From Allopusillimonas soli (GTDB lineage Bacteria > Pseudomonadota > Gammaproteobacteria > Burkholderiales > Burkholderiaceae_B): 64,000 bases of DNA. A model generated the notes under the pieces. The model was not told the origin of the DNA. It saw nothing but the letters and a program-made list of their open reading frames with translations, and ran no database searches. Within the stretch, counting starts at the first letter, position 1. Every line of letters begins with the position of its first letter. The translations under genes and the position numbers were made by a program. Shown piece after piece: positions 48,964 through 64,000 of the stretch. The stretch covers positions 868,001 through 932,000 of the forward strand of contig NZ_SDQC01000001.1 in NCBI RefSeq assembly GCF_004153445.1. The letters run 5' to 3'.

Positions 48964-49477
48964 TTTGAGCCCCTCCATCCAGGGCAACCACGCCAGTCGC
49001 CCTATATTCCCTGATCATGATCAGCGACCGCTGTATCACCCTATAGCCCAGCAGCAGGAAGCCAACCGGTAAGGCGGCCTGTGCAAACGCCATATTCAAA
49101 TCCAGGCCTGTCATGAGCGTGTCGTTCTCGATCTGGAGTTTCATCACCTGTACCGAGTAATACACGGTCAAGGCCACCAGGATCAAATTCAGCAAATCAA
49201 AGTACAGATACAGCCAGAACCTGCCCTTGTCTGACAATGTGCTGGGCAATAGATCGACGCGAATGTGGTTTCTGTGCTTCGATATATGGGCGGTGGATAC
49301 ATATACCAGGAACACAAACGCATATCTCGCCGTCATTTCACCCCATTCGCTTGAATCACCAAAGGCATATCGGCGCGCAACCTCGACCAGAATAATGAGC
49401 ACCAGATACATATAGCAGGCAACTATCAGCCATTCCTCCAGCCTGGCATCCAAGGCTTTCCAGATCCGACTTAGCAT
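48956..49477 (-). CDS. TRAP transporter small permease DctQ (second system)
   Basis: A 173-residue protein with four helices. LSRIWKALDARLEEWLIVACYMYLVLIILVEVARRY is the usual N-terminus. The ATG with GGGAG upstream is chosen over a start eight codons earlier. It lies 69 bp after the DctP gene and overlaps DctM by 8 bp. It pairs with DctM in the inner membrane. Confidence 0.88.
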   Translation of the reverse strand: MLSRIWKALDARLEEWLIVACYMYLVLIILVEVARRYAFGDSSEWGEMTARYAFVFLVYVSTAHISKHRNHIRVDLLPSTLSDKGRFWLYLYFDLLNLILVALTVYYSVQVMKLQIENDTLMTGLDLNMAFAQAALPVGFLLLGYRVIQRSLIMIREYRATGVVALDGGAQSV

Positions 49478-49546
49478 GTTTTCTCCCTTTTTCACCGGCA
49501 ACGGCGAATAGTCGCATAGAGGCTACATAGACAGAGTGTCTTTGAT

Positions 49547-50620
49547 TCAGACCGCTGACTGCTTGACGTAGGCCAGGATCTGCTCATACAAATCCACGCC
49601 ATAACGGTTCTTCCAGGAATCCCATTCAGACCGCTGATGCCCAATGGCGTCCACCCACTGAGCGTGCTCGTCCTCGGTCAAATCAGTGACCTGAATGCCC
49701 GCCGCCTCCCAATCCTTCCACATGCGCTCGTCGGCCTTATCTTGTTCTCGCTTCTGATATTCCCAGCATTCCGCGGCCGCCCTGTCGATGGCATGCTGAA
49801 CAGCTTCAGGGAGTTTTTCATACCATTTGCGCGAAACCATGGCGACATGGGCATTGAAGCTCAGCTTCGTGCGGCTCGCATGTCCCACGACCTCATGAAT
49901 GCGATTCGCCGTCAACGGCCCCAATCCGACATTCAACGCATCCACTGCGCCTTGCTGCATCGCCTGATAGGTTTCCGCCCAGTTCACGGATACAGGACTC
50001 GCAGGCGTGAGGCTGAAGGTCTGCTGTTCCACCTTGGAGTTGGTTACCCTCAGCTTGATGCCCTTTAAATCGCTCAGCAAGCGAATCGGCCGGTTGGACC
50101 GCTTGCTGGTACAGAGCACCCGAAAACCCGTGTTCGTCCACATGCCCGGAAGGATCTTCAGGCCCTTCTTCAAAGGATCTGTGCCAAACCTCGAGGCCTC
50201 AAACTCCTTGCTGGATAAAAACCGATTGAAAACCGATGTGGAAGGAAACAGATATGGCAGATCAAGCAGGTTGTACACTTCGGCGTAAGGTGTGAAATTC
50301 TGCATTGACACATGGCAAGCCTGCACCGCGCCATACTGGACCTTTTGCGGCAATTCCGTCTGGCCTCCCAGTTTGCCTCCTTCGTGCACATCCACCAGTA
50401 GTGCGCCGTCGCTGTATTTTTCGGCAAGCTCCTTGAACAGATCGATTCCGGTCACCACATACTGTTCGCTCGCACTTGTGAATGTATGAGCAAATAGCAT
50501 TTTGTGGCGTGATGCTGCACTCGCTTTCCCGATAACAGCGACGCCCAAGGAAGCTGCTCCTGCCAGACATAGGCTGCTGCGCAGAAAACCACGCCGGCTG
50601 GTAAGGTTTGTTTCTTTCAT
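49547..50620 (-). CDS. TRAP transporter substrate-binding protein DctP (second system)
   Basis: A 357-residue receptor with a twin-arginine-like leader (SRRGFLRSSLCLAGAASLGVAVIG). Motifs: LFAHTFTSASEQYVVTGIDLFKELAEKYS, LKGIKLRVTNSKVEQQTF and ETYQAMQQGAVDALNVG. AGGAG precedes the ATG. It belongs to the operon cupin, DapA-family lyase, IclR, DctP, DctQ, DctM, so its ligand is probably the acid cleaved by the lyase. Confidence 0.9.
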   Translation of the reverse strand: MKETNLTSRRGFLRSSLCLAGAASLGVAVIGKASAASRHKMLFAHTFTSASEQYVVTGIDLFKELAEKYSDGALLVDVHEGGKLGGQTELPQKVQYGAVQACHVSMQNFTPYAEVYNLLDLPYLFPSTSVFNRFLSSKEFEASRFGTDPLKKGLKILPGMWTNTGFRVLCTSKRSNRPIRLLSDLKGIKLRVTNSKVEQQTFSLTPASPVSVNWAETYQAMQQGAVDALNVGLGPLTANRIHEVVGHASRTKLSFNAHVAMVSRKWYEKLPEAVQHAIDRAAAECWEYQKREQDKADERMWKDWEAAGIQVTDLTEDEHAQWVDAIGHQRSEWDSWKNRYGVDLYEQILAYVKQSAV

Positions 50621-50665
50621 GTCTGTGTCTCCTGTTTATTATGGACAAACAATCAGTTTCGCTCG

Positions 50666-51430
50666 TTACTTAAATCGTCGATAAATGCTTCCTATATCGC
50701 TGGCCGCGCGCCTAAGCAAACTGGCATATTCCAAGGCCTTGTCCAGCTCCAGCCTGGCCCTTGGGGCATGCACCGCAACCGCTCCTATGATCTTCCTGTT
50801 TTTTCCAAACACCGGCACTGCAACGGATATCAGCCCCAATAAATAGCCTTCGTCGTCGGTGGCTATTCCCGCACTGCGTATGGCGGTCAATTCCTTTGCC
50901 AGTCGGGCTGCATCGGTAATCGTCTTTTCCGTATAGGGCGTGAGCGGAAGCCTTTTCAACAAAGTGCGCCGCTGATCCGCCGGCATATAACTCATGAAAA
51001 GCTTTCCGCTTGATGTACAGTGCAGAGGCACTCGAGAGCCCGACTCCAAATGCAGGCGCAGCGGCCATTTCGCCTCCACCCGGTCCACATACACCACGTC
51101 AGTCGCATCCAGCGTGGTGAAATTGCATGTTTCTCCTATCTCGTCGACCAGCAGCTTCAGGATCGTATGCCGCTCGTTATGCAGGACGCTGTGCGTATTT
51201 ACCTCCCTGGCCAGCGCAATCAGCCTGTCGCCGGCGGAATAGCTTTTCCCTCCGGGCTCCAACATCAGCGCCCTGGCGTGCACCAGTGTCCTCACCACCC
51301 GATAAAGGGTTGAACGCGGCAGACCGGTCAAATCCTCTATTTGTCTGATGCTAAGCGGTTTGTCGGAAGCCGCTACCGCTTCCAGCACCAGAAATCCGTT
51401 CAGCGTGGATGATCGTCCATCGTCAGACAC
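50666..51430 (-). CDS. IclR-family transcriptional regulator
   Basis: A 254-residue IclR protein: winged HTH at about 8-70 (LNGFLVLEAVAASDKPLSIRQIEDLTGLPRSTLYRVVRTLV), effector domain with CTSSGKLFMSYMPADQRRTLL. The GTG start is chosen because it overlaps the lyase stop by 8 bp and GGAAGAG precedes it. It lies inside the operon between the lyase and the TRAP genes. A candidate operator with CAGTACG arms lies at 52956-52981, upstream of the operon. Confidence 0.88.
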   Translation of the reverse strand: MSDDGRSSTLNGFLVLEAVAASDKPLSIRQIEDLTGLPRSTLYRVVRTLVHARALMLEPGGKSYSAGDRLIALAREVNTHSVLHNERHTILKLLVDEIGETCNFTTLDATDVVYVDRVEAKWPLRLHLESGSRVPLHCTSSGKLFMSYMPADQRRTLLKRLPLTPYTEKTITDAARLAKELTAIRSAGIATDDEGYLLGLISVAVPVFGKNRKIIGAVAVHAPRARLELDKALEYASLLRRAASDIGSIYRRFK

Positions 51431-52325
51431 AGCACTCTTCCAGTTGATCCACAATCGTGTGCAAACGGCGTTTAGCCGCATCAGTCAGCGGTTGCAGCGG
51501 GGCTCTCACCTCACCAAATACAAGCGCTGATCGCCTTGAAATTTCCTTGATGCACTGCGGCACCCCGTATTGCTTGAAGAAATAGAACAAGGGTTGAAGC
51601 ATCTTGTACTGTTCCGAGGATTCGGCGCTCCATGGATCCCGCACAAGCGCCTGGTAGAGAGCGACCAGCGGCTGCGCTATGGCAGGATGCATCATGACTT
51701 CCCAGCCCTGGGCGCCAAGCCGGAACCCATCCAGAGCCTGGTAATGGAAACCACAGTACAAGGTATAGCGATCGCCGCACAGCATGCGTATATCGCGCAA
51801 GCGGAAAACGTCGTTGGATGCGTCTTTTATAGACAGGATGCTGCCTATCGAAGACATTGCCAGAATGCGATCGGGTGTGAAATCAAAACCGGTAGGCAAG
51901 GTCAGGTTATAAAGCCTGATTGGCACATCGCAAGCCTGCGCCACCGCATCAAAATGCCGGTAGGCTGCCTCGAAGGAAACAGGGAAGTATTGCTGCATTT
52001 CCAGCATGAGACTCGTAGCCCCATGATCCTTGGCCTGCCTGGCCGCCTCGGTTGCCTGAAGCGTCGATAACCCACCTATGCCCACATTGATCTTCACTTT
52101 TCCCGACGCGGTTTTCGCCACCGTATCCAACACCGTCAATCGCTCCTGCTCCGTCATGTAGGGGCCTTCGCAAGTGCTAGCCAGGCAAGTCACGCCAACC
52201 ACGCCATGCGCAATCATCTGCGCCGTATATTCGGCCAACACGCCTGTATCAATACCGCCTGACTCGTTGAATGGCGTCGCCAGATAGCAGTAGAGCCCGC
52301 CCGAGTCTTTTTCCGCTTTGGACAT
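51423..52325 (-). CDS. DapA/NanA-family lyase (dihydrodipicolinate synthase superfamily)
   Basis: A 300-residue TIM barrel. The Schiff-base Lys is K167 (SIKDAS) and the conserved Tyr is Y139 (YNLTLPTGFDF). GVTCLASTCEGPYMTEQER replaces the usual GTTGE loop (STCEG), so the pocket differs from true DapA. The superfamily cleaves or forms bonds between pyruvate and aldehydes. With the TRAP transporter and cupin beside it, it probably cleaves a 2-keto acid derived from an imported sugar acid. It overlaps the IclR gene by 8 bp. Confidence 0.87.
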   Translation of the reverse strand: MSKAEKDSGGLYCYLATPFNESGGIDTGVLAEYTAQMIAHGVVGVTCLASTCEGPYMTEQERLTVLDTVAKTASGKVKINVGIGGLSTLQATEAARQAKDHGATSLMLEMQQYFPVSFEAAYRHFDAVAQACDVPIRLYNLTLPTGFDFTPDRILAMSSIGSILSIKDASNDVFRLRDIRMLCGDRYTLYCGFHYQALDGFRLGAQGWEVMMHPAIAQPLVALYQALVRDPWSAESSEQYKMLQPLFYFFKQYGVPQCIKEISRRSALVFGEVRAPLQPLTDAAKRRLHTIVDQLEECCV

Positions 52326-52368
52326 GGAGGTACCTCTCGAATAAAGGCACTAAGAAAGCACGGAACAA

Positions 52369-52806
52369 TCAGGCAGATTCCGGCGCCGGGAAACGGTCCA
52401 GATCGGAACCGATCTCTACCGTCATGCCACTTTCGGTGAAGGTTCTGGTGACATTCTGGTCACGCAGCACACCGTAAATCACCATCACCAGCGCTGGCTC
52501 GTCGCCTATGTTGCTGAACTCGTGGGGCACATCGCCCGAAATGAACGTCGAGTCATATGGCTCACAGTCCCGCTGTTTATCGCCGATCTTGATCCTCACC
52601 TTGCCTTTCAATACAGTTACCTGCTCCTCGGCATTCGGATGACTATGATTCGGAACGGCCGCGCCCACGGGCAATTCCGTCAAGCCCGAATGAATTCTCG
52701 TCGATCCCTGTTTGGCGGTCGCCACCGGATGATTGACTATCCCCACACCGCGACTGACAGACGGCAACTCCTTGTATGCCAGGAAATGAATTTGCTTCCC
52801 CACCAC
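52369..52806 (-). CDS. Cupin-domain protein
   Basis: A protein of about 145 residues with a single cupin fold. The metal motif is NHSHPNAEEQVTVLKGKVRI (two His, Glu) and DVPHEFSN (His). Small cupins of this type act as isomerases, lyases or dioxygenases on acids. AAAGGAG lies 5 bp before GTG at 52806, and an adjacent GTG at 52803 is equally possible. An upstream ATG at 52824 lies inside the ribosome-site region and is unlikely. It is the first gene of the TRAP/lyase operon. Confidence 0.8.
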   Translation of the reverse strand: MVGKQIHFLAYKELPSVSRGVGIVNHPVATAKQGSTRIHSGLTELPVGAAVPNHSHPNAEEQVTVLKGKVRIKIGDKQRDCEPYDSTFISGDVPHEFSNIGDEPALVMVIYGVLRDQNVTRTFTESGMTVEIGSDLDRFPAPESA

Positions 52807-53125
52807 TGAATCTCCTTTGCTCATGGACAAGTTCACTACAACCAGTACGTTTTTAGTTTGTCATCGCAGCAATATTGTGATCAAGATTCAATCATCCTTT
52901 TTCAGCATAAAAATCCCATTATTGGGAAAAATATGGATGGAAAATGGTGTTTTTACAGTACGAACGTGAAATTGCGTACTGCAATGCATGGCGGAGTACC
53001 GGAGCACGGACTGCAAGCCTCATCGAGACGGATGTCATTGGCGGCCACAGTTCAACCGGCCTTTGACTAATACTTTCCCGCGCAGTGAAATAGTCAAGAT
53101 ATTCCGAACCGAGAAGGAGATCGCC
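52807..53125. other. 319-bp gap between divergent cupin and VOC genes
   Basis: No gene is visible here. The region is AT-richer than its surroundings and should hold promoters for both flanking transcripts. It contains two inverted repeats: TCCCA-TTAT-TGGGA, and the CAGTACG pair listed separately. Confidence 0.6.
52956..52981. promoter_or_regulatory. Inverted repeat CAGTACG/CGTACTG, possible IclR operator
   Basis: CAGTACG (52956-52962) and CGTACTG (52975-52981) pair perfectly around 12 bp in the gap upstream of the cupin operon. This is the only long symmetric site in the gap, so it is the best candidate for the operon's IclR protein. Confidence 0.4.
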
Positions 53126-53587
53126 ATGAATGATCCATTTCGCCGCCCGGCCCTGGGCTCGGCCGTGTTTTACAGAGATCCGTCAGCGGCAATCGACTGG
53201 CTGAGCGAGGCGTTTGGCTTTGAAAGCAGCATGATCATCAAGGATCAAGACGGCAAGCTGGTCCACGCTGAAATGCAGTATGGGGACGGCTACATCATGG
53301 TCGGAGCCGAATGGGCCGATTTCACAGCAAGCCCGTCTTCTGTTGACGGTAAGAATACGCAGTCGATACACGTGCGTATGCATGATGCTATCGACGAGCA
53401 TTGTGAACAGGCCAGGAAAGCGGGGGCCGTCATCCTGAAGGAACCCTCGGACGAGTTCTATGGCGACCGCACCTATCGGGCTCGAGATCCGGAAGGCCAT
53501 GTGTGGACCTTCGGCCAGACTGTGCGTCACGTGTCGCGTGAGGAGGCCGAGCTGGCCAGCGGTCTTACGATTGAGGGCTGGCATTGA
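53126..53587 (+). CDS. VOC/glyoxalase-family protein
   Basis: A 153-residue vicinal-oxygen-chelate fold protein: VFYRDPSAAIDWLSEAFGFESSMIIKDQDGKLVHAEMQYGDGYIMVGAEW in the first half and EQARKAGAVILKEPSDEFYGDRTYRARDPEGHVWTFGQ in the second. The latter is the bleomycin-resistance/PhnB-like ending. GAAGGAG fixes the ATG. It is monocistronic. Substrate binding or dioxygenase-like roles are possible and none is indicated by the context. Confidence 0.85.
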   Translation: MNDPFRRPALGSAVFYRDPSAAIDWLSEAFGFESSMIIKDQDGKLVHAEMQYGDGYIMVGAEWADFTASPSSVDGKNTQSIHVRMHDAIDEHCEQARKAGAVILKEPSDEFYGDRTYRARDPEGHVWTFGQTVRHVSREEAELASGLTIEGWH

Positions 53588-53792
53588 TGGGGTGACCGCC
53601 AGCATTGGCCTCCCAGATCCTGCTGGAGCCAGTAACATGCAGGTTTGCGGATGATGCCGGATGAGTCACTGCTGACCGCTGGAACCGTCATTTGTGTTTG
53701 GTACATTCAACGCACTTGCAAATGCACCCATGCTTGCAAATGTGGATAGCGCGCTGGCAGACCAGTTACGCCAAAATGAAACCAATGACGAT

Positions 53793-54623
53793 TCAAGCCA
53801 CCTGTTGAGCTTTGGCCTCCTGAATTACCGCCTCTATCCTTCGAACCATTTGAACAAGCCTCGGCCCGATCTCCTGCTCTAGTTGATTAGGCAATAGCGA
53901 ATAAATCGGAACAGCGCAATTGAAAGCAATTTGTTCATTATCAAAAATCGGCGCCATACACACACCCACAGAATGTGCATCTGGAACAAAATCACTGTGC
54001 CGCGTGCAAAAACGACGCATCTTGTATTGCTCCATTGACTGTCCAATCTGGCGTTCATATTTCGCCCATAGATCGGGCGTTTTTACCTTGATCTGGTTAA
54101 GCAGGGCATTCCTCTCCATTTCCGGCAAACTGGCCAGGTATGCACGCCCCATGGACGAAACCAAAATCGGAAAGCTCTGGCCAACATCCGGCTTAGCACG
54201 CAGAATGCTATTCGAGCGTTCAGACTCTATATAGATCATATTGAGCCTGTCTCTGATTCCGATCGATACCCAGCCCTTCGCATAGTTGGCCAATTCGCGC
54301 ATATAAGGCCTGGCGATCTGTCGAATACGCAAGTTGGCCAACAGGGGATAACCTATGGATAACACAGCGGATCCAAGACGGTACTTGCGCGACACCTTAT
54401 CCTGTTTCAGATAACCCAGGCAGGTCAACGTATAAGTAAGGCGGGATACGGTCGGTTTTGGCAGACCACTGCGATCCGACAATTCCTTGTTTCCAAACTC
54501 GGGATTGAATGGAGAGAAGCATCGTAAAAGGTCAAGACCGCGAGCCAAAGTTGTCGCAAATTGGCGATCGTCTTCATATAAATATCGATCACGCGGTGCC
54601 GGGTCGGTATACAAGTCGCTCAT
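53793..54623 (-). CDS. IclR-family transcriptional regulator
   Basis: A 276-residue IclR protein: HTH at about 22-85 (FATTLARGLDLLRCFSPFNPEFGNKELSDRSGLPKPTVSRLTYTL), effector domain including RAKPDVGQSFPILVSSMGRAYLASLPEMERN. It resembles PcaU/PobR-type activators of aromatic-acid genes. It is divergent from the Bug, PrpD and SDR operon across 167 bp with an inverted repeat (54714-54737). It is the likely regulator of this side, and perhaps of the convergent CoA and sulfur operon too. Confidence 0.87.
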   Translation of the reverse strand: MSDLYTDPAPRDRYLYEDDRQFATTLARGLDLLRCFSPFNPEFGNKELSDRSGLPKPTVSRLTYTLTCLGYLKQDKVSRKYRLGSAVLSIGYPLLANLRIRQIARPYMRELANYAKGWVSIGIRDRLNMIYIESERSNSILRAKPDVGQSFPILVSSMGRAYLASLPEMERNALLNQIKVKTPDLWAKYERQIGQSMEQYKMRRFCTRHSDFVPDAHSVGVCMAPIFDNEQIAFNCAVPIYSLLPNQLEQEIGPRLVQMVRRIEAVIQEAKAQQVA

Positions 54624-54713
54624 TCGATGCCCCTAATTGAGGAGTAGTCGGCCGTTTCGATATGACAAACAGAATAAGGCAACAAAGCAGATGCAGCGGT
54701 TTTCATTTCGCAT

Positions 54714-54737
54714 AGCGATCCAACTTTCTGGATTGCT
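54714..54737. promoter_or_regulatory. Inverted repeat between iclR and Bug genes
   Basis: AGCGATCCA (54714-54722) and TGGATTGCT (54729-54737) are inverted with one mismatch around 6 bp. It lies 91-77 bp from the divergent start codons, a fitting place for an IclR operator. Confidence 0.45.
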
Positions 54738-54790
54738 CCGTATCCGTACATAGAATCCGGCAATCGGCATCCGTAAAAGCGGAGTGAAAA

Positions 54791-55786
54791 ATGACGTTTG
54801 CACAAGATACCAAAAATAAGGGGCTTCGGCTCTGCTATGCCATCATTATGGCCGCAATGGCCATAATTTCGGAACCAGCCTGTGCGCAAGATTACCCTTC
54901 AAGACCAATACGCATGCTTGTGGGCGCTTCTCCGGGCGGGACAACAGATATTGTCGCGCGCTTGGTGGCGCATGAGCTCGAAAAAAGGCTGAATCAGCCT
55001 GTTGCCGTAGAGAATCGTCCGGGAGCAGGCGGCAACCTGGCACTCAATGCGGTTGTGGGAGCTGCACCTGACGGCTATACATTGGGAATGGCCTATTCGG
55101 GGCTTGCCATCAATCCGGCGGTCATGAAAAAAATGCCTTTCGACACGCTGAATGACCTTGCGCCTGTGTCGCTGGTCGCAACGGTGGATATGTTTCTGCT
55201 GGTGAACCCTTCACTCGGCGTAGACACAGTTCAGGATTTGGTCGACGCAGCCAAGACTCATCCGGAAAAGATCACACTTGCGGCCAATGCCCTGGGATCG
55301 GTGTCTCACCTGTCCGCTGCATTGCTCAAGCTACGTACCGGCATGGAAAGCCCCATTGCCGTTTATAAAGGCAGCGCACCAGCCTTAATCGACCTGATGG
55401 CTGGGAATATTTCAGCTATGTTCGATACCGTGCCAGGTGCACTAAATTATGTAAAGCAGGGTAGGCTCAAAGTTATCGCATCTGGTGGAGCACACCGGCT
55501 ATCCATCGCCCCCGACGTGCCTACTTTGGAGGAGTCGGGCCTGGAAGATTTCAGAATAGGATCCTGGTACGGTCTGGTCGCGCCTGCCGGCACACCCGCC
55601 GAGGTAACCAATACGTTGAGTTCCGTAATCATCGATGTGCTATCTGCGCCACAGATCAAGCAGCAGCTTATGGAGCAAATGCTGAATCCGAAAGGAACGA
55701 CGCCTGCTGAATTCAAATCCTTCATCTCTACCGAAATGAAGCAATGGGAAAAAGTGGCGAAGGATGCACATATAACCATCAGGTAA
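54791..55786 (+). CDS. Tripartite tricarboxylate transporter substrate-binding protein (Bug family)
   Basis: A 331-residue receptor with a signal peptide ending near residue 33 (ACAQ). Motifs: RMLVGASPGGTTDIVARLVAHELEKRLN, VAVENRPGAGGNLALNAVVGAAPDGYTLG and APDVPTLEESGLEDF. GGAG precedes the ATG. It heads the operon with MmgE/PrpD and SDR genes and probably captures the acid handled by the surrounding enzymes. Confidence 0.9.
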   Translation: MTFAQDTKNKGLRLCYAIIMAAMAIISEPACAQDYPSRPIRMLVGASPGGTTDIVARLVAHELEKRLNQPVAVENRPGAGGNLALNAVVGAAPDGYTLGMAYSGLAINPAVMKKMPFDTLNDLAPVSLVATVDMFLLVNPSLGVDTVQDLVDAAKTHPEKITLAANALGSVSHLSAALLKLRTGMESPIAVYKGSAPALIDLMAGNISAMFDTVPGALNYVKQGRLKVIASGGAHRLSIAPDVPTLEESGLEDFRIGSWYGLVAPAGTPAEVTNTLSSVIIDVLSAPQIKQQLMEQMLNPKGTTPAEFKSFISTEMKQWEKVAKDAHITIR

Positions 55787-55807
55787 TACCGCGGGAGCCC
55801 TATTTTC

Positions 55808-57208
55808 ATGTCCTCCACCTGCTCGCCTAGCCACGCCGATGCCGGCCTGTCTTCCTTGCTCGCGCATCATGTTGATCGTACTCAATACGAAATGCTGCCA
55901 CCAGAAGCAATCTCCGCGGCCAAGTCACTTATCCTTGACACAGTGTCCACGGCATGGGCTGGAGCCGAGGCTGTCGGTATTGATTCGGCGTATCACGCAT
56001 TGGCGAGCGCTCAGGGCTATAGCGTGGCGAACTGTGCCCCTCCATGTCGGATATGGGGCAGGCCTGCGCATGCGCCAGTTCTGGATGCAGCGTTCATAAA
56101 TAGCGCTTCAGCGGCCGCACTAGATTTTGACGCGTTGCATCTCGACGCCGTCATGCATTCATCAATCATGACACTGCCAGCTCTTGTCGCAGTGTCCCAA
56201 CAGCATCAACTTGGCGGCAAGGCACTTTTGACAGCCATTGTGCTGGCCGATGACTTGAATTGCCGCCTGGGCGTTTCTGCTCAGGGCCACAATGGATGGT
56301 TCTTTACTTCGGTCTTCGGCATATTTGGCACTGCCGCTGCCAGCGCAAAGTTGCTTGGATGCAACCAAGCCGAAATTACGCATGCGTTGGGTATTGCATT
56401 GTTTCAAACTGGAGGCACCCAACAGGCTATGCTTGAGAAGAGCTTAGCGAAACGTTTCATGGCCGCCTTTGCCGCTCGCAACGGCCTCTTCTCCGCGATG
56501 CTGGCCAAGTCAGGCATAACGGGGCCCACTATGCCGTTTGAAGGAAAATTTGGGCTTTCCAATTTATATCAGGAATGCGACCCCGACACTGTGCTGCGTC
56601 AGCTCGGCTTACGCTACGAGAACTGTGCAATCCATATTAAGAAATATCCATGTTGCGGATGCTCTCATGCGGTGATCGAGGCCACGCTTTCTCTGATGAA
56701 GAAGCACAATATCAAAGCTGATGATGTAGCATCTGCACAAGTCGACATATCGGAATTCATGAATCGGATGATAGGCGGTGAGTTCGATCAGAATGCCAAA
56801 GACCCGCAGGTCATGGCTCAATTCAATGCCAAATATGCCGTGGCGTGCGCGCTTCTGCGCGGGCAATTCAAACTTGAGGATCTCGACCCGAAAAGAGTGC
56901 TGGATCCGCGCATACGAGACATCACCCGCCGGGTCAAAATAAAGATTGATCCAAATAATCACGGCGAACTGGCTCCTGCAACATTGACGTTTGGCCTTCG
57001 CTCCGGTAGAGCAGTCAGCGAACGCATAGATTCTTTCCCTGGCTCAACCTGCGCTACGATCAGTCGAAGCGTGCTGGAGAGTAAGGCCGACGACTGCTTT
57101 CGACAGGGCTTCAGCCCGCTCAGTAAAGCCCAGATAGATGGCCTTGTCGAAAAGATCGATAACATTGAGGCAGTCGGCAATATGGCGGACTTCTTCACAG
57201 AACTTTAA
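55808..57208 (+). CDS. MmgE/PrpD family protein
   Basis: A 466-residue MmgE/PrpD protein (SLILDTVSTAWAGAEAVGIDSAYHAL, then FINSASAAALDFDALHLDAVMHSSIMTLPALVAVSQQ and HIKKYPCCGCSHAVIEATLSL). The family includes 2-methylcitrate dehydratase, aconitate decarboxylase and various isomerases acting on polycarboxylates. It lies 21 bp after the Bug gene and 16 bp before the SDR. The substrate cannot be read from the sequence, but a branched or unsaturated di/tricarboxylate is expected. Confidence 0.88.
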   Translation: MSSTCSPSHADAGLSSLLAHHVDRTQYEMLPPEAISAAKSLILDTVSTAWAGAEAVGIDSAYHALASAQGYSVANCAPPCRIWGRPAHAPVLDAAFINSASAAALDFDALHLDAVMHSSIMTLPALVAVSQQHQLGGKALLTAIVLADDLNCRLGVSAQGHNGWFFTSVFGIFGTAAASAKLLGCNQAEITHALGIALFQTGGTQQAMLEKSLAKRFMAAFAARNGLFSAMLAKSGITGPTMPFEGKFGLSNLYQECDPDTVLRQLGLRYENCAIHIKKYPCCGCSHAVIEATLSLMKKHNIKADDVASAQVDISEFMNRMIGGEFDQNAKDPQVMAQFNAKYAVACALLRGQFKLEDLDPKRVLDPRIRDITRRVKIKIDPNNHGELAPATLTFGLRSGRAVSERIDSFPGSTCATISRSVLESKADDCFRQGFSPLSKAQIDGLVEKIDNIEAVGNMADFFTEL

Positions 57209-57224
57209 TCTCCAGGAGAGAACC

Positions 57225-57989
57225 ATGCCATGCACAGCGCTGGAAGGCAAAGTAGTCTGGGTATCGGGAGCAACTGGGGCCTTAGGCGCAGAAATATGCC
57301 GTCAATTGGCCGCAGCCGGTGCCTCTCCGGTGGCTTCGAGTAGATCAGAGGACAAACTCTCTGCATTGCAAACCGACATCCAGCCCATCGGCGAGATCAG
57401 CATAATTCCCGTGGACATAAAACAAGAAGCAACAATCAGAGCCGTCGCGGATGAAATTGTACTCAGGCATGGCCGCATCGACGCTCTGGTCAATTCGACA
57501 TCCATCTCACTATTTGCGGACTTCCTGGATCTCGACGACGAGGCCTGGCGCGACATACTGGACAGCAAGCTCATGGCTTACGTTCGAACGTGCCGTGCCG
57601 TCATCCCACATATGATTGAGCAAGGCGGGGGCAGCATCATCAATATTTCGGGACGAAGCGCACGCCAGCCCCTTCCCACCCATCTGCCTGGAGGTTGCGC
57701 CAACGCGGCGGTTAACCTCCTGACCAAGGGTTTGGCTGATCGCTATTACAACGACAACATACGCGTGAATTGCGTGGCGCCCGGTCCGATAGAATCAAAA
57801 CGGTTTTCGACCATAAAATCAAGCCATGAAAAAAACGAAAGTGCCACAGGAGCTAGGCCTGTTCTCACACGCGACATCGGCCAGCCCCTGGATATCGCGG
57901 ACGCCGTGTTGTGGCTGCTGTCAGACAGATCCAAGCACCTGACAGGAACCGTAATTCCGGTGGATGGGGGTAGTACCGTCTGTGTATGA
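57225..57989 (+). CDS. Atypical SDR family protein lacking the YxxxK pair
   Basis: A 254-residue SDR. The cofactor site is SGATGALG (14-21). Ser142 is in place (IINISGRSARQP), but where YxxxK should be, the sequence reads THLPGGCANAAVNLL, without Tyr or Lys, and NNAG is replaced by NSTS. The end HLTGTVIPVDGGS is normal. Such SDRs either use another residue or have lost dehydrogenase activity. AGGAGAG fixes the ATG, 16 bp after the PrpD-family gene. It ends this operon. Confidence 0.85.
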   Translation: MPCTALEGKVVWVSGATGALGAEICRQLAAAGASPVASSRSEDKLSALQTDIQPIGEISIIPVDIKQEATIRAVADEIVLRHGRIDALVNSTSISLFADFLDLDDEAWRDILDSKLMAYVRTCRAVIPHMIEQGGGSIINISGRSARQPLPTHLPGGCANAAVNLLTKGLADRYYNDNIRVNCVAPGPIESKRFSTIKSSHEKNESATGARPVLTRDIGQPLDIADAVLWLLSDRSKHLTGTVIPVDGGSTVCV

Positions 57990-58045
57990 AGAATGCCTCC
58001 GCCTGTTCTCATTCACTGGGGTGACGATTGTATGGCCGTCCCGAT

Positions 58046-58534
58046 TTACTCGCACGTCAAGGGTATGCGAAGATCATCTTGGTAGCTCAGCAGACCCTCG
58101 CAGGTCTCTGAGTAATCAAACGATTGTACTTCGCCTATACAAAGCACATGGCTGCCTTGAACTATCTGCTGAGTCACGATCACCTCAAAGTTGGCGGCCG
58201 CGTTTTCGACTAAAGGAACCTCAAGTGAGGGCCCTCTCGTCCACTGAAAACGATCTGCATTGCAATCTTTCGCGCACTGGGCCCAAAGGTCGCGATGATC
58301 CGCCGCCATCACACTCAGGCCACAATGTGCACCGATCGGTATTCTAGGCCGGCCATCAATGCCTTGAGCCGCACACCACATGACCAGTTTGGGTGTCAGG
58401 GAAAGCGAGTTGAACGCGCTGGCCATCACAAATTGCGGCCCCAATTCATGGTCCTCATATCCGACAAGCACCAACCCACCCGCTAAGCGATGCTGAGGCG
58501 ATTGAGCGCGCAATGGCAATAAGGTGCTGTTCAT
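58046..58534 (-). CDS. Flavin reductase-like domain protein (second copy)
   Basis: A 162-residue HpaC-type split-barrel protein: MASAFNSLSLTPKLVMWCAAQ, GAHCGLSVMAADHRDLWAQCAKDC, GSHVLCIGEVQSFDYSE. It should supply reduced FMN or FAD to an oxygenase. The ATG overlaps the CoA-ligase stop (ATGA) with GGAGAAG upstream. The longer open frame is an artefact from inside the ligase gene. It is the last gene of the leftward operon and pairs functionally with the oxygenase-like gene four kb upstream. The FMN-binding pattern is weaker than in the other copy. Confidence 0.72.
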   Translation of the reverse strand: MNSTLLPLRAQSPQHRLAGGLVLVGYEDHELGPQFVMASAFNSLSLTPKLVMWCAAQGIDGRPRIPIGAHCGLSVMAADHRDLWAQCAKDCNADRFQWTRGPSLEVPLVENAAANFEVIVTQQIVQGSHVLCIGEVQSFDYSETCEGLLSYQDDLRIPLTCE

Positions 58535-59931
58535 GACTTCTCCAATACAACAAGCCTCGATTTTTTCTCGGTGCGGCCAAGTGCCCCGACGGAGGCGAAC
58601 TCTATATTGGCGCTTACTGTCAGCTCTTGGCGTAACGCCTGTTCGATCTTCGCTTTCAGTTCCGCATTCGCATCCGATGCCTCTACCCTGACCTGCAAGG
58701 GAGGAATGACTGCCGGCCCCGGCCTTGGAAGCACGATCTGCATCACGCCGCTTACCCGAGGTGCAAATCTTCCGATGATGGACTGCACCGCCGAGGGAAA
58801 CACATTGACTCCTCTGACGATCAGCATGTCGTCGCTGCGCCCGACTATATCCATACGAAAACCAGTACGCCCACAGGCACATTCCGATGTACGAACTTTG
58901 ATGATGTCGCCGGTTCGGTATCTGAACAAGGGGCATGCCTGCCTATCCAGATGCGTAAATACATACTCGCCCTGGGCGCCGTCACTCATCTCCATTACGT
59001 TGCCTGTGTCCGGATCGATCAGTTCGATAAGTGCAAGGTCAGGCGTGAGCTGATGCTTGCCATCGCGAAGCCTGCAGTGGGCGAACGAGTTTGGATGCGC
59101 ATCCGATGTTGAGGCAAAGTCGTATACATAGGGCGTGCCCCATGCCTCTTCCATGCGTTTCTGGAAGGCAGGTTGCTCAAAGCCAGACTCGCCACCACCA
59201 CAGATAATACGAAGCCCGAGCTCCTGGGACGGGATTCCCAAAACATCCTGGCAACGTTCCGCCAAAGCTGCCGCAAACGACGGTGTGCCCACCCACACTG
59301 TTGCCTTCAACTGCTGCATCAGTATAAGCATCCCTTCCACGCGCCGCTCCGCTCCGGCCGGGATGTTTACCGCTCCCAGTCTTTCCACCGCTGCGCACAA
59401 CGGAATACCCGCGTTGAACATACTCAAGGCAAAACCATTGACAACCCTGTCGCCGGGGCGAACGCCAAATCCCCACAGCGCTCGAGCCAGACTTTCCGAG
59501 CGCCTGAGCGTATCGTGAGCCGTATACCCTTGAAACACGGACTTACCTGTCGTGCCGGAAGTGGCCGTTATACGAACAATCTGCTCCATCAATGCTGCCT
59601 GATGCAGGCCAAACGGCGGATATGTCTCCTGACTATCACGCAACTCCGCCTTTGTGGTGAACGGCACGCATCTAATGTCTTCTATGGAATGGTAGGAACT
59701 CAGGCTGAACCCAGCCGACTGGAACCTTTCCTTGTAAAATTCGGAATGGCTGGCAAGGTAAGCGATCTGCTGCCGCAGCTTGAATGTCTGCAGCATCCGG
59801 ATTTGTTCCGGCGGCATGGTTTCCCGTCCCATATTCCAGAAGGGACGATTAATGTCGCCGAGACTTTCCATGATCTCAGGCGGCCATGATGAGGAAGACT
59901 CAGTTGGCAAGGAATAATCATGATCAAACAT
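58531..59931 (-). CDS. Phenylacetate-CoA ligase family protein (PaaK-like)
   Basis: A 466-residue adenylate-forming enzyme. The nucleotide loop is TSGTTGK (124-130), ICGGGESG follows, then FRYRTGDI, GRSDDMLIVRGVNVFP and the C-terminal catalytic-Lys region GALGRTEKKSRL. PaaK relatives activate aryl or other carboxylic acids to CoA thioesters. It lies 17 bp after the flavin reductase gene and overlaps the second reductase by 4 bp. It is the only CoA-forming enzyme in this operon, so it should make the CoA substrate for the acyl-CoA-dehydrogenase homologues. Confidence 0.9.
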   Translation of the reverse strand: MFDHDYSLPTESSSSWPPEIMESLGDINRPFWNMGRETMPPEQIRMLQTFKLRQQIAYLASHSEFYKERFQSAGFSLSSYHSIEDIRCVPFTTKAELRDSQETYPPFGLHQAALMEQIVRITATSGTTGKSVFQGYTAHDTLRRSESLARALWGFGVRPGDRVVNGFALSMFNAGIPLCAAVERLGAVNIPAGAERRVEGMLILMQQLKATVWVGTPSFAAALAERCQDVLGIPSQELGLRIICGGGESGFEQPAFQKRMEEAWGTPYVYDFASTSDAHPNSFAHCRLRDGKHQLTPDLALIELIDPDTGNVMEMSDGAQGEYVFTHLDRQACPLFRYRTGDIIKVRTSECACGRTGFRMDIVGRSDDMLIVRGVNVFPSAVQSIIGRFAPRVSGVMQIVLPRPGPAVIPPLQVRVEASDANAELKAKIEQALRQELTVSANIEFASVGALGRTEKKSRLVVLEKS

Positions 59932-59948
59932 ATATCGCCTTCACCTAC

Positions 59949-60425
59949 TCAATGAAACTGGGCAAATCGCCCAGCAAAATAGAGCAATGGCGCACCATCC
60001 GCCAGTTCGCTCTCGACTACGTCACCAATAAACATGACATGGTCACCGACTTCGGTAGTATCGGTTCGCCGGCAAACGTACCAGGCGATAGCTCCATGGA
60101 TTTTTGGCAGGCTCTGTGATCCTGCTGCGACATAGTCAATACCTTCGTAGCGATCAGCCAACGACGATGCAAACTGCCTAGCCACCGAAATCTGATTACT
60201 GGCAAGCACGTTGACAGAGAAATAGCTTGCCTCCTCAAACACCGCGCGCGTTCTCGATTCAACGCCCAGGCTCCAAGCGAGGCGAACTGGGTCAGAGCCA
60301 ACGGGTGTAACCGAGTTTGCGGTCAAGCCCACCAGCTTGCCATCCTCTCCGCGCGCGCTGATGATGGCAACACCGGTCGGGTACCGCCCCAGCGCATTCC
60401 GAAATTCTCTTGAACTTGAGCTCAT
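59949..60425 (-). CDS. Flavin reductase-like domain protein (HpaC-like)
   Basis: A 158-residue FMN/FAD reductase: REFRNALGRYPTGVAIISARGEDGKLVGLTANSVTPVGSDPVRLAWSLGVESRT is the standard N-terminal half, followed by YFSVNVLASNQISVARQFAS and GDHVMFIGDVV. These enzymes use NAD(P)H to make free reduced flavin for two-component monooxygenases. It starts 20 bp after the oxygenase-like gene, so the two are the obvious reductase and oxygenase pair. Confidence 0.87.
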   Translation of the reverse strand: MSSSSREFRNALGRYPTGVAIISARGEDGKLVGLTANSVTPVGSDPVRLAWSLGVESRTRAVFEEASYFSVNVLASNQISVARQFASSLADRYEGIDYVAAGSQSLPKIHGAIAWYVCRRTDTTEVGDHVMFIGDVVESELADGAPLLYFAGRFAQFH

Positions 60426-60445
60426 ATGAAACCCGGCTCGGAAAG

Positions 60446-61612
60446 TTACAGGCGAGCAGTAGTGTCGTATGGCTCACCCAGATGAAACTTACCCAATGTA
60501 GCGGCCGTCTTGTCCAAGTTCTCGTGCAGCGTGTGAATACGCAAATCGCGGAACAGGCGGGACATGGGGGAATCAGCCCAGAATGCGCTCGATCCGATGA
60601 TCTGCGCGCCTTTATCCATGGTAATCACTGCGTTTTCAATAGCCCGGTGCTTCGCACACATGGAAAATAGCTCTGCCGCCTCGCGATCACTGTTCTTCCA
60701 CATCCAGGCAGCACGGTAAATGAGCCATCTCACTGAATCCGTCCCCACTCGGATCTCGCCCATGCGCAGCTGTGTATATGAATCACTGGCCGTACCGCGC
60801 TTTGGCAGGTACTCGCGAAGCAAGTCAAAAATTGCCTCCGCCCCTCCCAGGTACTGGGCAGCAAAGCTCAAGTGAAATCGCGCCTGCCAACGCTCGCGTG
60901 GGTACAGTCCTAAGTCGCCTAAAACATTGCTGTTATCGACAAAACAGTTGTCCAGCTTCAGGGATGGGCTGTGCGCTCCTCTCATGCCAATCGGATTCCA
61001 CGAACCTTCGACGACGGAGAATCCCTTTGCATTCTGCGGAACCAGAACGCCAAGGTGTCCCTCGTTGCCCGGCATGCCCGCCACACCGGCGAATATTAGG
61101 TTGTAGTCCACGTCAGCGCCCAGGGTGGCGTAGTTTTTCATACCATTGAGTATGTAGCCATTCTCGGCGGGCTGCGCTGCGGTAATAAGGTTGTAGGCGC
61201 CACGGGATGTACGGCCAGGCTCGCTCCCGGTCGCGTTAAGAAGGCTGCCCCGTTCGAGCACTGGCTTCAATACGCGCTCGCGCTGCTCATCGGTGCCGAC
61301 CTGGTCCACGTAATGCGCTCCATGACAATGGATATGAAAACACTGCGCCGTGGACAAATCGCCACGTGCCGTCTGTTCCACTGCCAGCAAATAAAGTAGA
61401 GGATCCTCACCCGCTGTGCCGCTTCCCATTCCACCCATTCGTTCAGAAATGGTAATCCCATTCAACCCTGCATCAAAGAAGGCGCGCATGTTCTCGCTGG
61501 GAGTACTCGCTTCAGCGTCATATCTGGCAGCGTTCGGTTTGAACACTGTTCTGCTTAGCTCCCCTACCGTTTCGTAAACTTGCCTTTGTTGTTTAGTGAG
61601 TTCGAAATTCAT
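60446..61612 (-). CDS. Acyl-CoA dehydrogenase-fold protein, DszC-like flavin monooxygenase candidate
   Basis: A 388-residue protein with the acyl-CoA dehydrogenase fold (ATGSEPGRTSRG at 127-138, GMRGAHSPSLKLDNCFV). The C-terminus is not the usual IxEGTxEI motif. It reads RIHTLHENLDKTAATLGKFHLG (from 358), close to the RTHTLHDPV ending of group D monooxygenases such as DszC, and HIHCHGAH (93-100) supplies further His residues. An oxygenase role with the adjacent flavin reductase is therefore more likely than dehydrogenation. The ATG at 61612 has AGGAACC upstream. The substrate may be the CoA ester made by the PaaK-like ligase. Confidence 0.8.
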   Translation of the reverse strand: MNFELTKQQRQVYETVGELSRTVFKPNAARYDAEASTPSENMRAFFDAGLNGITISERMGGMGSGTAGEDPLLYLLAVEQTARGDLSTAQCFHIHCHGAHYVDQVGTDEQRERVLKPVLERGSLLNATGSEPGRTSRGAYNLITAAQPAENGYILNGMKNYATLGADVDYNLIFAGVAGMPGNEGHLGVLVPQNAKGFSVVEGSWNPIGMRGAHSPSLKLDNCFVDNSNVLGDLGLYPRERWQARFHLSFAAQYLGGAEAIFDLLREYLPKRGTASDSYTQLRMGEIRVGTDSVRWLIYRAAWMWKNSDREAAELFSMCAKHRAIENAVITMDKGAQIIGSSAFWADSPMSRLFRDLRIHTLHENLDKTAATLGKFHLGEPYDTTARL

Positions 61613-61725
61613 ATGGTTCCTGCCGTTCCGTAAGTTGGATATGATGCAATGGCTACACACGCAATCATCCTATCAATCCCCGACCCAATATCGATCAAGA
61701 TAGTGAAACTCGATCCAGTATTTCG

Positions 61726-63324
61726 CTATGTTGACCAAGAAAGAAATGCATCCGCGGATAAGTCCTCACTTAGGCGCTGCTCCCATTCGAGATATCTAGC
61801 CATTTCTTCAAGGCTCGAGTCATAAGGTGGGACGACTACATCTGGCGTGCGAACAAAGCCATCCGGCCATCCGGAGTCAACAGTGAATTTTTGTTTCCAT
61901 GTATTGATCCCACCTTCAAGTACACGCACAGATGAATATCCCAGGCGCCTCAGATTTGCAGCTGCATAGACAGAATGAACGCCCGTTCGGCAGGTCAGAA
62001 TGACGGGCGTATCCAACGCTGTAAGATACTGGCCGAGATGGTATTCAAGCCAGCCATAGGGAATCCAGATTGCGCCCGGGACCCTGGCCGTCTCATAGGA
62101 CTTGCTGGTATCCACATGCACAATCAGGGGCTCGGGTTTCATGCTCTGCAACGCATCCGCACTCACATGTACCGAGTTCTCCCTGGCTTGACGCAGGCCG
62201 AGAGGCGTCGACCGATCACGCCCCGACCCTATCGGATATCCGGCTTCCTTCCATACCTGCAGGCCGCCCCTCAAAACCCGAACATCCTGCCATCCCAGCT
62301 TGCGAAACCAGAATGCTGTCAGAAATGCGCGCCCGGTATCATCGTCTACGAATATCAGGATTGCACGCCGTGCCGGCATATAGTCATCTATCCGCTGCAT
62401 GGCCAGGCCTCCCGGAAGCACCTGCGCGCCGCGGATATGTGCAGTCTCGTACTGATCTACCTGTCGCACATCGTAGACATAGATGTTTCTGGCACGTGCA
62501 TCTCGCTCCTTGATCAGCCCAGCGAGTTCATCCGGTTCGATTTCGGTAACGCCCGCCGACCGAGCCAAGGCCATGGCTGATTGCCTTCCAACCTGCACAC
62601 TTTCGGGTGTAGGAGATAAAATTCCCTGCGGCGAGCCACGTTCTAGTCTGAATCCCGCCAGCTGCCAGCCCATCGTACCGTTTTCGAGTGCGTACACATT
62701 GTCGAGGCCAAGCTCTCTTAGACCCTGACAAGCAATAATGCCCCGAGTTCGTCCGGCGCAATGCACCACAATGGGCAATCGAGCCTCCTTCAGATCATGA
62801 GCCACCGACACCAGATCCACACCAAACGCGCCACGTGCATTAGGAATGCGCTTGTCCGCATACTCGACGGGCGTGCGTATATCACAGATTATGCAATCCC
62901 TGCCTTCATCCAACCATGTTTTCAATGTCTCGGCAGATACTTGCGGCACACGCAGGGTCTCATGTACGTACTCTCCGAAAATCTTTCCAGCCACATTGGA
63001 TCCGGAGGTAACTTCCCTACCTTTGCTCAACCACGCAACAAGGCCACCTTCAAGAACATGGACGTTTTCATAGCCCACTCGATGCAATGCATCAGCTGCC
63101 AACTCCGCCCGCCTGCTGGTGCCATCGTCATAAAGAACGACAAAAGTTCGAGTATCAGGCACCAATTCTCCGATACGAAGTTCCAACATCCGTCGTGGAA
63201 GGAAACACGCGCCGAGAATATGTCCTGAGTTGGCTTCAGCCAGCTCACGCACATCGAACAAGGCCCACTCCGTATCACTCTCGCGCAGCCTGTCAAACGC
63301 TGGAAAGGAAATGATGCTCGTCAT
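61726..63324 (-). CDS. Four-domain rhodanese (sulfurtransferase) protein
   Basis: A 532-residue protein of four tandem rhodanese domains (about 1-105, 120-230, 260-365, 385-480). The active-loop residue alternates: D66 (YDDGTSRR), C189 (HCAGRTRG), D327 (VDDDTGRA), C445 (TCRTGVHS). Domains 2 and 4 can therefore carry a persulfide, while 1 and 3 should be structural or binding units. The CDVR/DVR-type entry motifs are present in each. It lies 2 bp after an acyl-CoA-dehydrogenase homologue, its ribosome site overlapping that stop. It implies that sulfide or persulfide is released by the pathway. Confidence 0.9.
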   Translation of the reverse strand: MTSIISFPAFDRLRESDTEWALFDVRELAEANSGHILGACFLPRRMLELRIGELVPDTRTFVVLYDDGTSRRAELAADALHRVGYENVHVLEGGLVAWLSKGREVTSGSNVAGKIFGEYVHETLRVPQVSAETLKTWLDEGRDCIICDIRTPVEYADKRIPNARGAFGVDLVSVAHDLKEARLPIVVHCAGRTRGIIACQGLRELGLDNVYALENGTMGWQLAGFRLERGSPQGILSPTPESVQVGRQSAMALARSAGVTEIEPDELAGLIKERDARARNIYVYDVRQVDQYETAHIRGAQVLPGGLAMQRIDDYMPARRAILIFVDDDTGRAFLTAFWFRKLGWQDVRVLRGGLQVWKEAGYPIGSGRDRSTPLGLRQARENSVHVSADALQSMKPEPLIVHVDTSKSYETARVPGAIWIPYGWLEYHLGQYLTALDTPVILTCRTGVHSVYAAANLRRLGYSSVRVLEGGINTWKQKFTVDSGWPDGFVRTPDVVVPPYDSSLEEMARYLEWEQRLSEDLSADAFLSWST

Positions 63325-63326
63325 GG

Positions 63327-64000
63327 CTATCCTTGCGCTCCACTAATACCCATGAACTCTTTACCTAGCAGTTCTCGAATGACCGTAATTTTCATCACGT
63401 TGATAGTTCCGCCCGTGAATGTAAGCGCGATCACATCGCGATAACGGCGTTCTATGTCAAGGTCCTTCAGGTATCCGGCGGCACCATGCATCTGCAGACA
63501 ATCGTAAACGGCCTGCACAGACGAGGTGATGCCGCTCCATTTGGCCATGCCTGCCTCACGTGCCGCATTCTCATTACGCGTGTTCATCCACAACCCCTTG
63601 TATGCCATCAAGCGGCAGCTTTCTATTCGGGTGTAATGCTCGATAAGCGGAAAGCTGATGGCCTGGAACAGGCCTATGGGCTGGCCATACACCTTTTTCT
63701 TCTTCACATAATCGATGGTGTCATCCAGAACCTGCTGCGCAGTCCCCAGTGCATTCAATGCACTTAGGCAACGGCTCACATTCCAGCGAGCATACAAGGT
63801 GGCCTTTCCCTCCCCTTTTCCGCCCAGCACATCTCCAATCGGAATACGCACGTTGTCAAAGTTCACAACACCAAGCTGGTGCGACCGTGTTCCCATCTCA
63901 GGCATTTCTTCCGATGATATGCCGGGCAGATCCGCCGGTACTCTCAGAAAGCTGATGCGCTCCTTACCGTCTTCTTGCCTGACCTTGGCAGTCACGCCCA
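63327..64000 (-). CDS. Acyl-CoA dehydrogenase homologue without catalytic Glu (N-terminus outside window)
   Basis: Only the C-terminal 223 residues are visible, the gene running off the right edge. Domain 2-3 features are clear (HQLGVVNFDNVRIPIGDVLG, KKVYGQPIGLFQAISFPLIEHYTRIESCRLMAYKG, CLQMHGAAGYLKDLDIERRYRDV). The usual EGT is GGT here (TFTGGTINVMK), and the alternative base position of isovaleryl-CoA dehydrogenase is not Glu (NVSRCLS). From memory, the same Glu-to-Gly change occurs in 3-sulfinopropionyl-CoA desulfinase of Advenella. Desulfination or another non-dehydrogenase reaction is thus possible. It is coupled to the rhodanese gene by a 2-bp gap. Confidence 0.8.
   Translation of the reverse strand, partial: GVTAKVRQEDGKERISFLRVPADLPGISSEEMPEMGTRSHQLGVVNFDNVRIPIGDVLGGKGEGKATLYARWNVSRCLSALNALGTAQQVLDDTIDYVKKKKVYGQPIGLFQAISFPLIEHYTRIESCRLMAYKGLWMNTRNENAAREAGMAKWSGITSSVQAVYDCLQMHGAAGYLKDLDIERRYRDVIALTFTGGTINVMKITVIRELLGKEFMGISGAQG

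Follow-up and report, generated by a model that had tools for sequence, protein, structure and literature searches.

What would a bacterium degrade with an operon that joins an acyl-CoA-dehydrogenase (ACAD) homologue devoid of its catalytic glutamate, a four-domain rhodanese and a relative of the flavin monooxygenase DszC? The question is raised by the last genes of a stretch of 64,000 nucleotides from Allopusillimonas soli (NZ_SDQC01000001.1; G000:C10:868001-932000), hereafter the window, for which an earlier note, made from the sequence alone, had proposed the coenzyme A (CoA)-dependent degradation of an organosulfur or heteroaromatic acid. We found this interpretation partly supported: its sulfur side proved stronger than the note could know, and its kinship with a known desulfinase too specific. 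With a confidence a little above even, we read the operon and its flanking genes as a cluster for the CoA-dependent catabolism of an aliphatic carboxylic acid that contains sulfur and is perhaps a polycarboxylate, chiral or branched. The reading builds on what was directly observed: the genes, their conservation and co-occurrence, the residues at their active sites and the sulfur-related genes around rhodaneses of this family. Degradation routes are known for few organosulfur acids, to our knowledge one ACAD-type desulfinase family has been described so far, and no description of this gene set was found among the matches listed in the open-licence literature.

All six genes lie on the minus strand (58046 to 64484 in window-equivalent coordinates), in the order and with the short gaps or overlaps that had been described before: counted from ACAD1, the intergenic spacing derived from the coordinates is 2, 113, 20 and 17 bp, followed by an overlap of 4 bp. 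ACAD1 runs 484 bases over the window end and was completed from a stretch reaching past it (L003), where it occupies positions 7328-8485 and encodes 385 amino acids. Listed from ACAD1 onwards, the genes are as follows.

63327..64000 in the window, complete to 64484, minus strand: ACAD1, the Glu-less ACAD homologue, with ACAD domains above the Pfam cut-off
61726..63324, minus strand: four-domain rhodanese (PA2603-like), with four PF00581 stretches and 1yt8 as best PDB match
60446..61612, minus strand: DszC-like protein, a putative flavin monooxygenase (group D, SfnB/MsuC-type by motifs)
59949..60425, minus strand: flavin reductase 1 (PF01613, 125.5 bits)
58531..59931, minus strand: PaaK-like acyl-CoA ligase, matching phenylacetate-CoA ligase 4r1l (4.9e-59) and 2-hydroxyisobutyryl-CoA synthetase 6hdw (3.3e-56)
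58046..58534, minus strand: flavin reductase 2, divergent (PF01613, 60.5 bits against a cut-off of 27), its gene overlapping that of the ligase by 4 bp

Flavin reductase 1 matches p-hydroxyphenylacetate-hydroxylase-type reductase. The presence of the ligase supports the CoA activation predicted by the earlier note; with 214.2 bits against the cut-off of 646.3 of the PaaK equivalog TIGR02155, it is PaaK-like and not PaaK. Rfam gave zero matches in the window at gathering score. The cluster extends on both flanks of the six genes, beyond what had been listed before.

Among 399 genomes of the order to which the window belongs, searches with the DszC-like protein (E <= 1e-60) and with the ACAD1-family profile (E <= 1e-85) each gave matches in two, and a search with P0001 (E <= 1e-105) in two of 300 genomes; all three returned the same pair, the genome of the window and G002. 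These counts are lower bounds, since only the top few candidates per genome were scored. The sample includes a single further genome from the window's genus, G237, which had neither a DszC-like nor an ACAD1-family match. Both proteins exceeded 60% identity in the same two of 72,556 records of a plasmid collection, from Variovorax SRS16 and PBL-E5, and a contig scan yielded four loci out of 51 pattern matches, from Candidimonas nitroreducens (83%), a Burkholderiales metagenome-assembled genome (MAG; 70%), Sneathiella chungangensis (65%) and a Pseudolabrys MAG (64%). Over the 13,000 bases compared, the locus of the Burkholderiales MAG does not differ from contig 85 of G002, and the two were therefore counted as one; with the two Variovorax plasmids likewise merged, six lineages result. 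The set is held in five beta-/alphaproteobacterial lineages and partly in the sixth, Pseudolabrys, where the contig breaks off and shows no more of the set than the DszC-like gene and the flavin reductase gene next to it, with a LysR gene and others, including an ordinary ACAD, upstream.

Identity in the four full foreign clusters is 66-81% for ACAD1, 36-58% for the rhodanese and 54-70% for the ligase, and genes for an MmgE/PrpD family protein (39-56%) and an SDR oxidoreductase (42-63%) likewise occur in all four. AcnX was found in three of the six loci, counting that of the window, and IclR and TctC genes in four each; the Variovorax stretch contains genes of CoA-transferase family III, as does the vicinity of the Candidimonas and Sneathiella clusters, and a TAXI-TRAP transporter stands beside the cluster genes of Sneathiella. 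A flavin reductase gene is located near the DszC-like gene in five of the six loci, in three of them as the immediately neighbouring gene; Candidimonas and Variovorax have two each, and Sneathiella has a weak match (27%) about 3 kb away. The order of the six genes is that of the window in Candidimonas and is altered in Sneathiella and Variovorax, so the linkage has survived rearrangement. The recurrence of the set in four other lineages, and partly in a fifth, points to co-location beyond chance. The cluster, with its patchy distribution, has probably spread horizontally. Over its first 40 kb the window has a GC content of 0.61, which drops to 0.52-0.54 at 44000-64000, around the cluster; the drop suggests acquisition of this end from elsewhere. 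Plasmid 4 of Variovorax SRS16 additionally carries, with ligase and rhodanese genes (L006:7808-11895), a second Glu-less ACAD (46% identical to ACAD1), which is encoded just upstream of the ligase, rhodanese and DszC-like genes and, within the plasmid collection, is confined to the two records from Variovorax.

The best evidence for a sulfur role of the operon comes from the neighbourhoods of its rhodanese. This protein has the four domains of the PA2603 type and matches 1yt8, which we take to be PA2603, at 6.1e-70 over residues 18-526; the catalytic-loop Cys is present in domain 2 of all eight sequences compared and in domain 4 of four. Matches at E <= 1e-60 were found in 37 of the 399 genomes, at 41 places. 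Setting aside the operon itself leaves 40 loci, namely 39 relatives (32-38% identical) and the operon copy of G002, each viewed over about 6 kb per side where the contig allows, with several regions shortened by contig ends. A gene for a cysteine-dioxygenase-type (CDO-type) thiol dioxygenase lies near 24 of these 40 loci versus none of 20 control stretches, taken in 20 of the genomes on contigs of sufficient length. When relatives of SfnB/DszC, LLM and TauD are counted along with those of thiol dioxygenase, 27 loci have one or more, among them the G002 operon, which enters through its own DszC-like gene. Among four annotated plasmid loci outside Variovorax, three (two from the same species) have a cysteine dioxygenase and the fourth has SfnB and two LLM flavin oxidoreductases beside the rhodanese. 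The pairing of thiol dioxygenase and rhodanese has been published for Pseudomonas (PMC12947264) and Advenella (PMC5373536). Together with the motifs of the DszC-like protein, these neighbourhoods uphold the organosulfur setting proposed before. The genome of the window also has a second four-domain rhodanese (G000:C12:306813-308315), together with genes for a cystathionine beta-lyase and a relative of CDO, an arrangement of the published mercaptosuccinate dioxygenase cluster type (PMC5373536).

We read the DszC-like protein as a group D flavin monooxygenase, of the SfnB/MsuC type by its motifs. The flavin adenine dinucleotide (FAD) motif FGxxIxxxQ, which 14 of the 17 ACADs of the same genome possess, is found in none of the six DszC-like orthologues and in none of 11 proteins from the SfnB search. 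A C-terminal TLH[DE] motif is common to all six orthologues and 10 of the 11 SfnB-search proteins and occurs in none of 28 own-genome ACAD (n = 17), ACAD1-family and desulfinase-search rows and in one of seven other relatives, and a DP[YF]...G[ED]-type motif is likewise present in 6/6 orthologues, 7/11 SfnB-search proteins and 0/17 own ACADs. The TLH[DE] region aligns with methanesulfinate monooxygenase 6u76, ordinary ACADs scoring slightly higher in the same search. Because it stays below the cut-offs of both the DszC model NF043015 (66.1 versus 850) and the SfnB model TIGR04022 (83.5 versus 430.9), the protein is neither DszC nor SfnB itself. In an unrooted tree, its clade falls outside a 31-row dehydrogenase-side group (100/100). 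On two of three plasmids viewed, relatives with 35-40% identity are encoded beside TauD, or beside taurine-ABC and LLM-type genes. The group D enzymes Dms1-3 oxidise dimethyl sulfide and dimethyl sulfoxide and MsuC oxidises methanesulfinate (PMC13352529); others, such as XiaF, hydroxylate carbon (PMC5481743).

The second unusual protein is ACAD1 itself, which had been described as a dehydrogenase homologue with GGT instead of EGT. The EGT motif, which holds Glu376 of medium-chain acyl-CoA dehydrogenase (MCAD), is replaced by GG[TA] in all six members of the ACAD1 family. Dehydrogenases with Gly or Ala at residue 376 carry their catalytic Glu on another helix. Gly or Ala at the EGT position is usual in long-chain, isovaleryl- and benzylmalonyl-CoA dehydrogenases (PMC11659651). 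A Glu moved to the position used by the isovaleryl and long-chain enzymes was ruled out as an explanation of the GGT: the position of Glu254 in isovaleryl-CoA dehydrogenase (IVD) is Ser or Thr in 6/6 sequences. ACADs of the same genome that have Gly or Ala at 376, such as L026 and L028, retain a Glu at this second position. With Gly-Gly at 376 and Ser or Thr at 254, both known positions of the catalytic base are empty throughout the family, so the Glu-less character reported from one of them extends to the other, and the glutamate at MCAD 376 or IVD 254 that marks a functional ACAD is absent from ACAD1. The FAD motif FGxxIxxxQ is retained in 6/6 sequences. ACAD1 may have an unconventional catalytic base.

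The loss of the base recalls the 3-sulfinopropionyl-CoA desulfinases (AcdDPN7 of Advenella and AcdA of Variovorax), which are like ACAD1 in their ACAD fold and FAD motif. According to what is reported of its structure, AcdDPN7 has Gln246 and Gly366, with no Glu or Asp at either base position, and an essential Arg84. The equivalents in L016, a desulfinase above the family cut-off, are 249, 370/371 and Arg85, and the double loss is the same (Gln and Gly, versus Ser or Thr and Gly-Gly in ACAD1). On the desulfinase model NF042439, ACAD1 itself reaches 168.5 bits against a curated cut-off of 600, and its top model is acryloyl-CoA reductase, at 226 against 640. In a tree of 52 rows, from which nine ACAD matches that were partial or long (some of them close to the normal length), second copies of six named proteins and six exact duplicates are left out, the ACAD1 family forms a clade of its own (100/100, stem 0.97) apart from L016. 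Constraining ACAD1 and L016 together gave a p of 0.032 in the approximately unbiased test, or 0.027 with two below-cut-off rows added, a weak rejection in that the comparison rests on one true desulfinase. The cut-off and the missing arginine, together with the weak rejection of a common clade, rule ACAD1 out as a member of the Advenella-type desulfinases, to which the earlier note had linked it; we retain the analogy.

Residues invariant in the ACAD1 family and missing from the 22 own-genome ACAD and desulfinase-search rows include His152, Gln203 and Trp234, among others, and the equally invariant His202 is present in one of the 22. In the alignment, the His152 column holds an aromatic residue in 16 of the 17 own ACADs, and the position presumably adjoins the flavin. 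The AlphaFold model of ACAD1 was unusable (mean pLDDT 38.4, from three sequences). We tentatively suggest, at clearly less than an even chance, that the ACAD scaffold has been recruited a second time, independently, for redox-neutral C-S cleavage in ACAD1 and the Variovorax paralogue, whose sulfur-binding site would differ. Their pathway, so far undescribed, would handle the carbon-sulfur compound as a CoA thioester and oxygenate it with a group D monooxygenase in the role of the thiol dioxygenase. As part of the same proposal, His152, His202, Gln203 and Trp234 would bind the sulfur in place of the desulfinase arginine.

The substrate class is suggested by the flanking genes, which in the window are the following.

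57222..57989, plus strand: SDR oxidoreductase, convergent with the operon, with homologues in the Candidimonas, Burkholderiales MAG, Variovorax and Sneathiella clusters
55808..57208, plus strand: MmgE/PrpD family protein, with homologues in the same four clusters
54791..55786, plus strand: TctC-type solute receptor
53793..54623, minus strand: IclR-family regulator, 75% identical in Candidimonas, the probable regulator of the cluster

Outside the window, and divergent from ACAD1, follow a TctC gene and two AcnX parts (L003:8751-11382). The MmgE/PrpD protein stays below the PrpD equivalog cut-offs (40.8 versus 950 and 31.4 versus 575) and is assigned to the MmgE/PrpD family only, and the large AcnX part stays below that of LhpI, the cis-3-hydroxyproline dehydratase (220.2 versus 700). 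An MmgE/PrpD protein has been proposed as a methylsuccinate isomerase beside an ACAD in the use of branched dicarboxylates by Pseudomonas (PMC9875883), and the AcnX family includes cis-3-hydroxyproline dehydratase (PMC5144071); the AcnX-family protein here possibly has another substrate. Because these accessory enzymes recall branched dicarboxylate metabolism and the genes matched or scanned include no clear ring-cleavage gene, we favour an aliphatic polycarboxylic organosulfur acid. About 4 kb beyond the AcnX genes lies a TauD-type dioxygenase gene (L003:15679-16569, the hit at 15700-16524), divergent from a LysR-like gene; its product is 49% identical to a TauD encoded beside an Azospirillum four-domain rhodanese and was the sole sulfur-oxygenase-type match when the window and the cluster loci were searched.

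Judged by protein families, from which the substrate, the step order and every enzyme's reaction are deduced, the pathway might run as follows. The acid would be taken up via TctC-type receptors of the tripartite tricarboxylate transporter type or via TAXI-TRAP, after which the MmgE/PrpD protein (as isomerase or hydro-lyase), AcnX (as hydro-lyase) and the SDR could adjust stereochemistry and hydroxyl or keto groups. The PaaK-like ligase would make the CoA thioester, whose sulfur would be oxygenated by the DszC-like monooxygenase with reduced flavin from the flavin reductases. ACAD1, an FAD scaffold without a base, could then cut the C-S bond much as a desulfinase does, with no net redox change, and the released sulfite or sulfane sulfur would be handled by the four-domain rhodanese.

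Parts of this scheme have counterparts in known systems. The loci of the Advenella and Variovorax desulfinases have TctC genes nearby, as here (PMC5373536), and achieve CoA activation via SucCD or a CoA transferase (PMC6370202, PMC5373536) instead of a PaaK-like ligase; the CDO-type thiol dioxygenase of those systems was not found in this cluster. Modules of thiol dioxygenase and rhodanese (3mdo-tst/PA2603, or mercaptosuccinate dioxygenase with cystathionine beta-lyase) contain the same rhodanese family, whereas here the flavin monooxygenase and ACAD1 occupy the place of the thiol dioxygenase. With DszC, SfnB, MsuC and Dms1-3, the DszC-like protein shares the TLH[DE] and DP[YF]...G[ED]-type motifs, the missing FGxxIxxxQ and a nearby flavin reductase (5/6 loci); it differs in being far below the family cut-offs, in its CoA ligase and ACAD neighbours and in being globally closer to ACADs. 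The itaconate/methylsuccinate operon PA0878-PA0886 likewise combines an ACAD, CoA activation and an MmgE/PrpD protein, yet rhodanese, monooxygenase and flavin reductase are not among the gene functions named in the account of it consulted (PMC9875883).

Several observations weigh against a sulfur-containing substrate processed in this way. Relatives of thiol dioxygenase, LLM or cystathionine beta-lyase were found nowhere in the whole window, L003, L006 or L010-L013; with no CDO-type gene in the clusters, the usual partner of the rhodanese is missing. A CDO-type neighbour is likewise absent from 16 of the 40 rhodanese loci, and of the 15 of these that were inspected (the other being the G002 operon, and one of the 15 yielding no rhodanese open reading frame), several have ordinary-looking catabolic neighbours. 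In the column of Arg85 of L016, each of the six ACAD1-family rows has Met or Ile. The Burkholderiales MAG stretch (L011) gave no flavin reductase, and in Variovorax about 9 kb separates the two reductase genes from the DszC-like gene. The DszC-like protein scores higher with ACADs than with the SfnB set both in whole-length profiles (133-160 versus 98-117 bits) and in hhalign (1.5e-36 versus 1.2e-27); it has the ACAD fold by Foldseek, which puts dehydrogenases first, a flavin monooxygenase from rank 10 and DszC at rank 17. Its structure model has a mean pLDDT of 72.8 and a low-confidence C-terminus that includes the motif, so Foldseek is unable to separate monooxygenase from dehydrogenase. The whole-length score and the fold are thus compatible with an ordinary dehydrogenase, an explanation that we rate lower as the motifs count against it.

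Some of these observations would suit the catabolism of a sulfur-free branched dicarboxylate or hydroxy acid. Carbon would then be the target of hydroxylation by the DszC-like protein, ACAD1 would act as dehydrogenase or reductase by means of an unconventional base, and the rhodanese would have an accessory part, e.g., in Fe-S supply for AcnX or under sulfur stress. Besides the missing thiol dioxygenase and the 16 CDO-less rhodanese loci, some of which lie near genes that by eye are CaiB-, PrpD-, TctC- or ACAD-like, this explanation draws on the MmgE/PrpD, AcnX, SDR and TctC genes of the clusters and on the MmgE/PrpD and ACAD pair that serves methylsuccinate use in Pseudomonas (PMC9875883). 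We nevertheless hold it to be rather unlikely, as the rhodanese is kept in all five clusters in full view, rhodanese loci are linked to thiol dioxygenase far more often than the control stretches (24/40 versus 0/20) and relatives of the DszC-like protein stand beside TauD or taurine-ABC/LLM-type genes. Two CDO-less rhodanese loci, L112 (G046:C25) and L126 (G203:C5), lie near TctC-, CaiB- or MmgE/PrpD-like genes, assigned partly by eye, and are possibly further undescribed organosulfur clusters.

The heteroaromatic substrate that the earlier note had placed beside the organosulfur one found little support. A pathway that oxidises an aromatic or heteroaromatic acid, of the thiophene- or furan-carboxylate type, in a CoA-dependent way would agree with the phenylacetate-CoA ligase match of the PaaK-like ligase, the p-hydroxyphenylacetate-hydroxylase-type reductase, and the IclR regulator, whose top model is PcaR/PcaU/PobR (112.2 bits, under the cut-off of 284.75); a glyoxalase/dioxygenase-superfamily gene (PF00903) at 53126-53587 adjoins the IclR gene. 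The annotation of the Variovorax stretch lists no ring-cleavage gene, and, apart from the PF00903 gene, none was found among the genes matched or scanned elsewhere, where foreign open reading frames are partly classified. The ligase misses the PaaK cut-off, and the similar-scoring 2-hydroxyisobutyryl-CoA synthetase acts on an aliphatic acid. With MmgE/PrpD, AcnX and SDR all pointing to aliphatic (poly)carboxylates, we regard such a pathway as improbable. Ligase, rhodanese and flavin enzymes are also combined in thiocarboxylate biosynthesis, where the ligase would activate an acid, the rhodanese supply sulfur and the flavin enzymes tailor the product; the making of a sulfur-containing metabolite is, however, highly improbable here, the TctC receptors, IclR regulator, MmgE/PrpD, AcnX and SDR genes all looking catabolic.

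Catabolism of a sulfur-containing aliphatic acid thus stays our preferred reading, and because the operon is common to named strains (Candidimonas nitroreducens SC-089, Variovorax SRS16 and PBL-E5, and Sneathiella chungangensis), the question of its substrate is testable. The natural set of base-less ACADs further offers a means to study how the scaffold switches from dehydrogenation to other chemistry. Elsewhere in the same genome there is one PF03404 (sulfite-oxidase-type) gene. A separate leftward set at 47677-52836 of the window, with TRAP transporter genes, an IclR regulator, a dihydrodipicolinate-synthase-like lyase and a cupin (all but the cupin named by eye), resembles another acid catabolic cluster.

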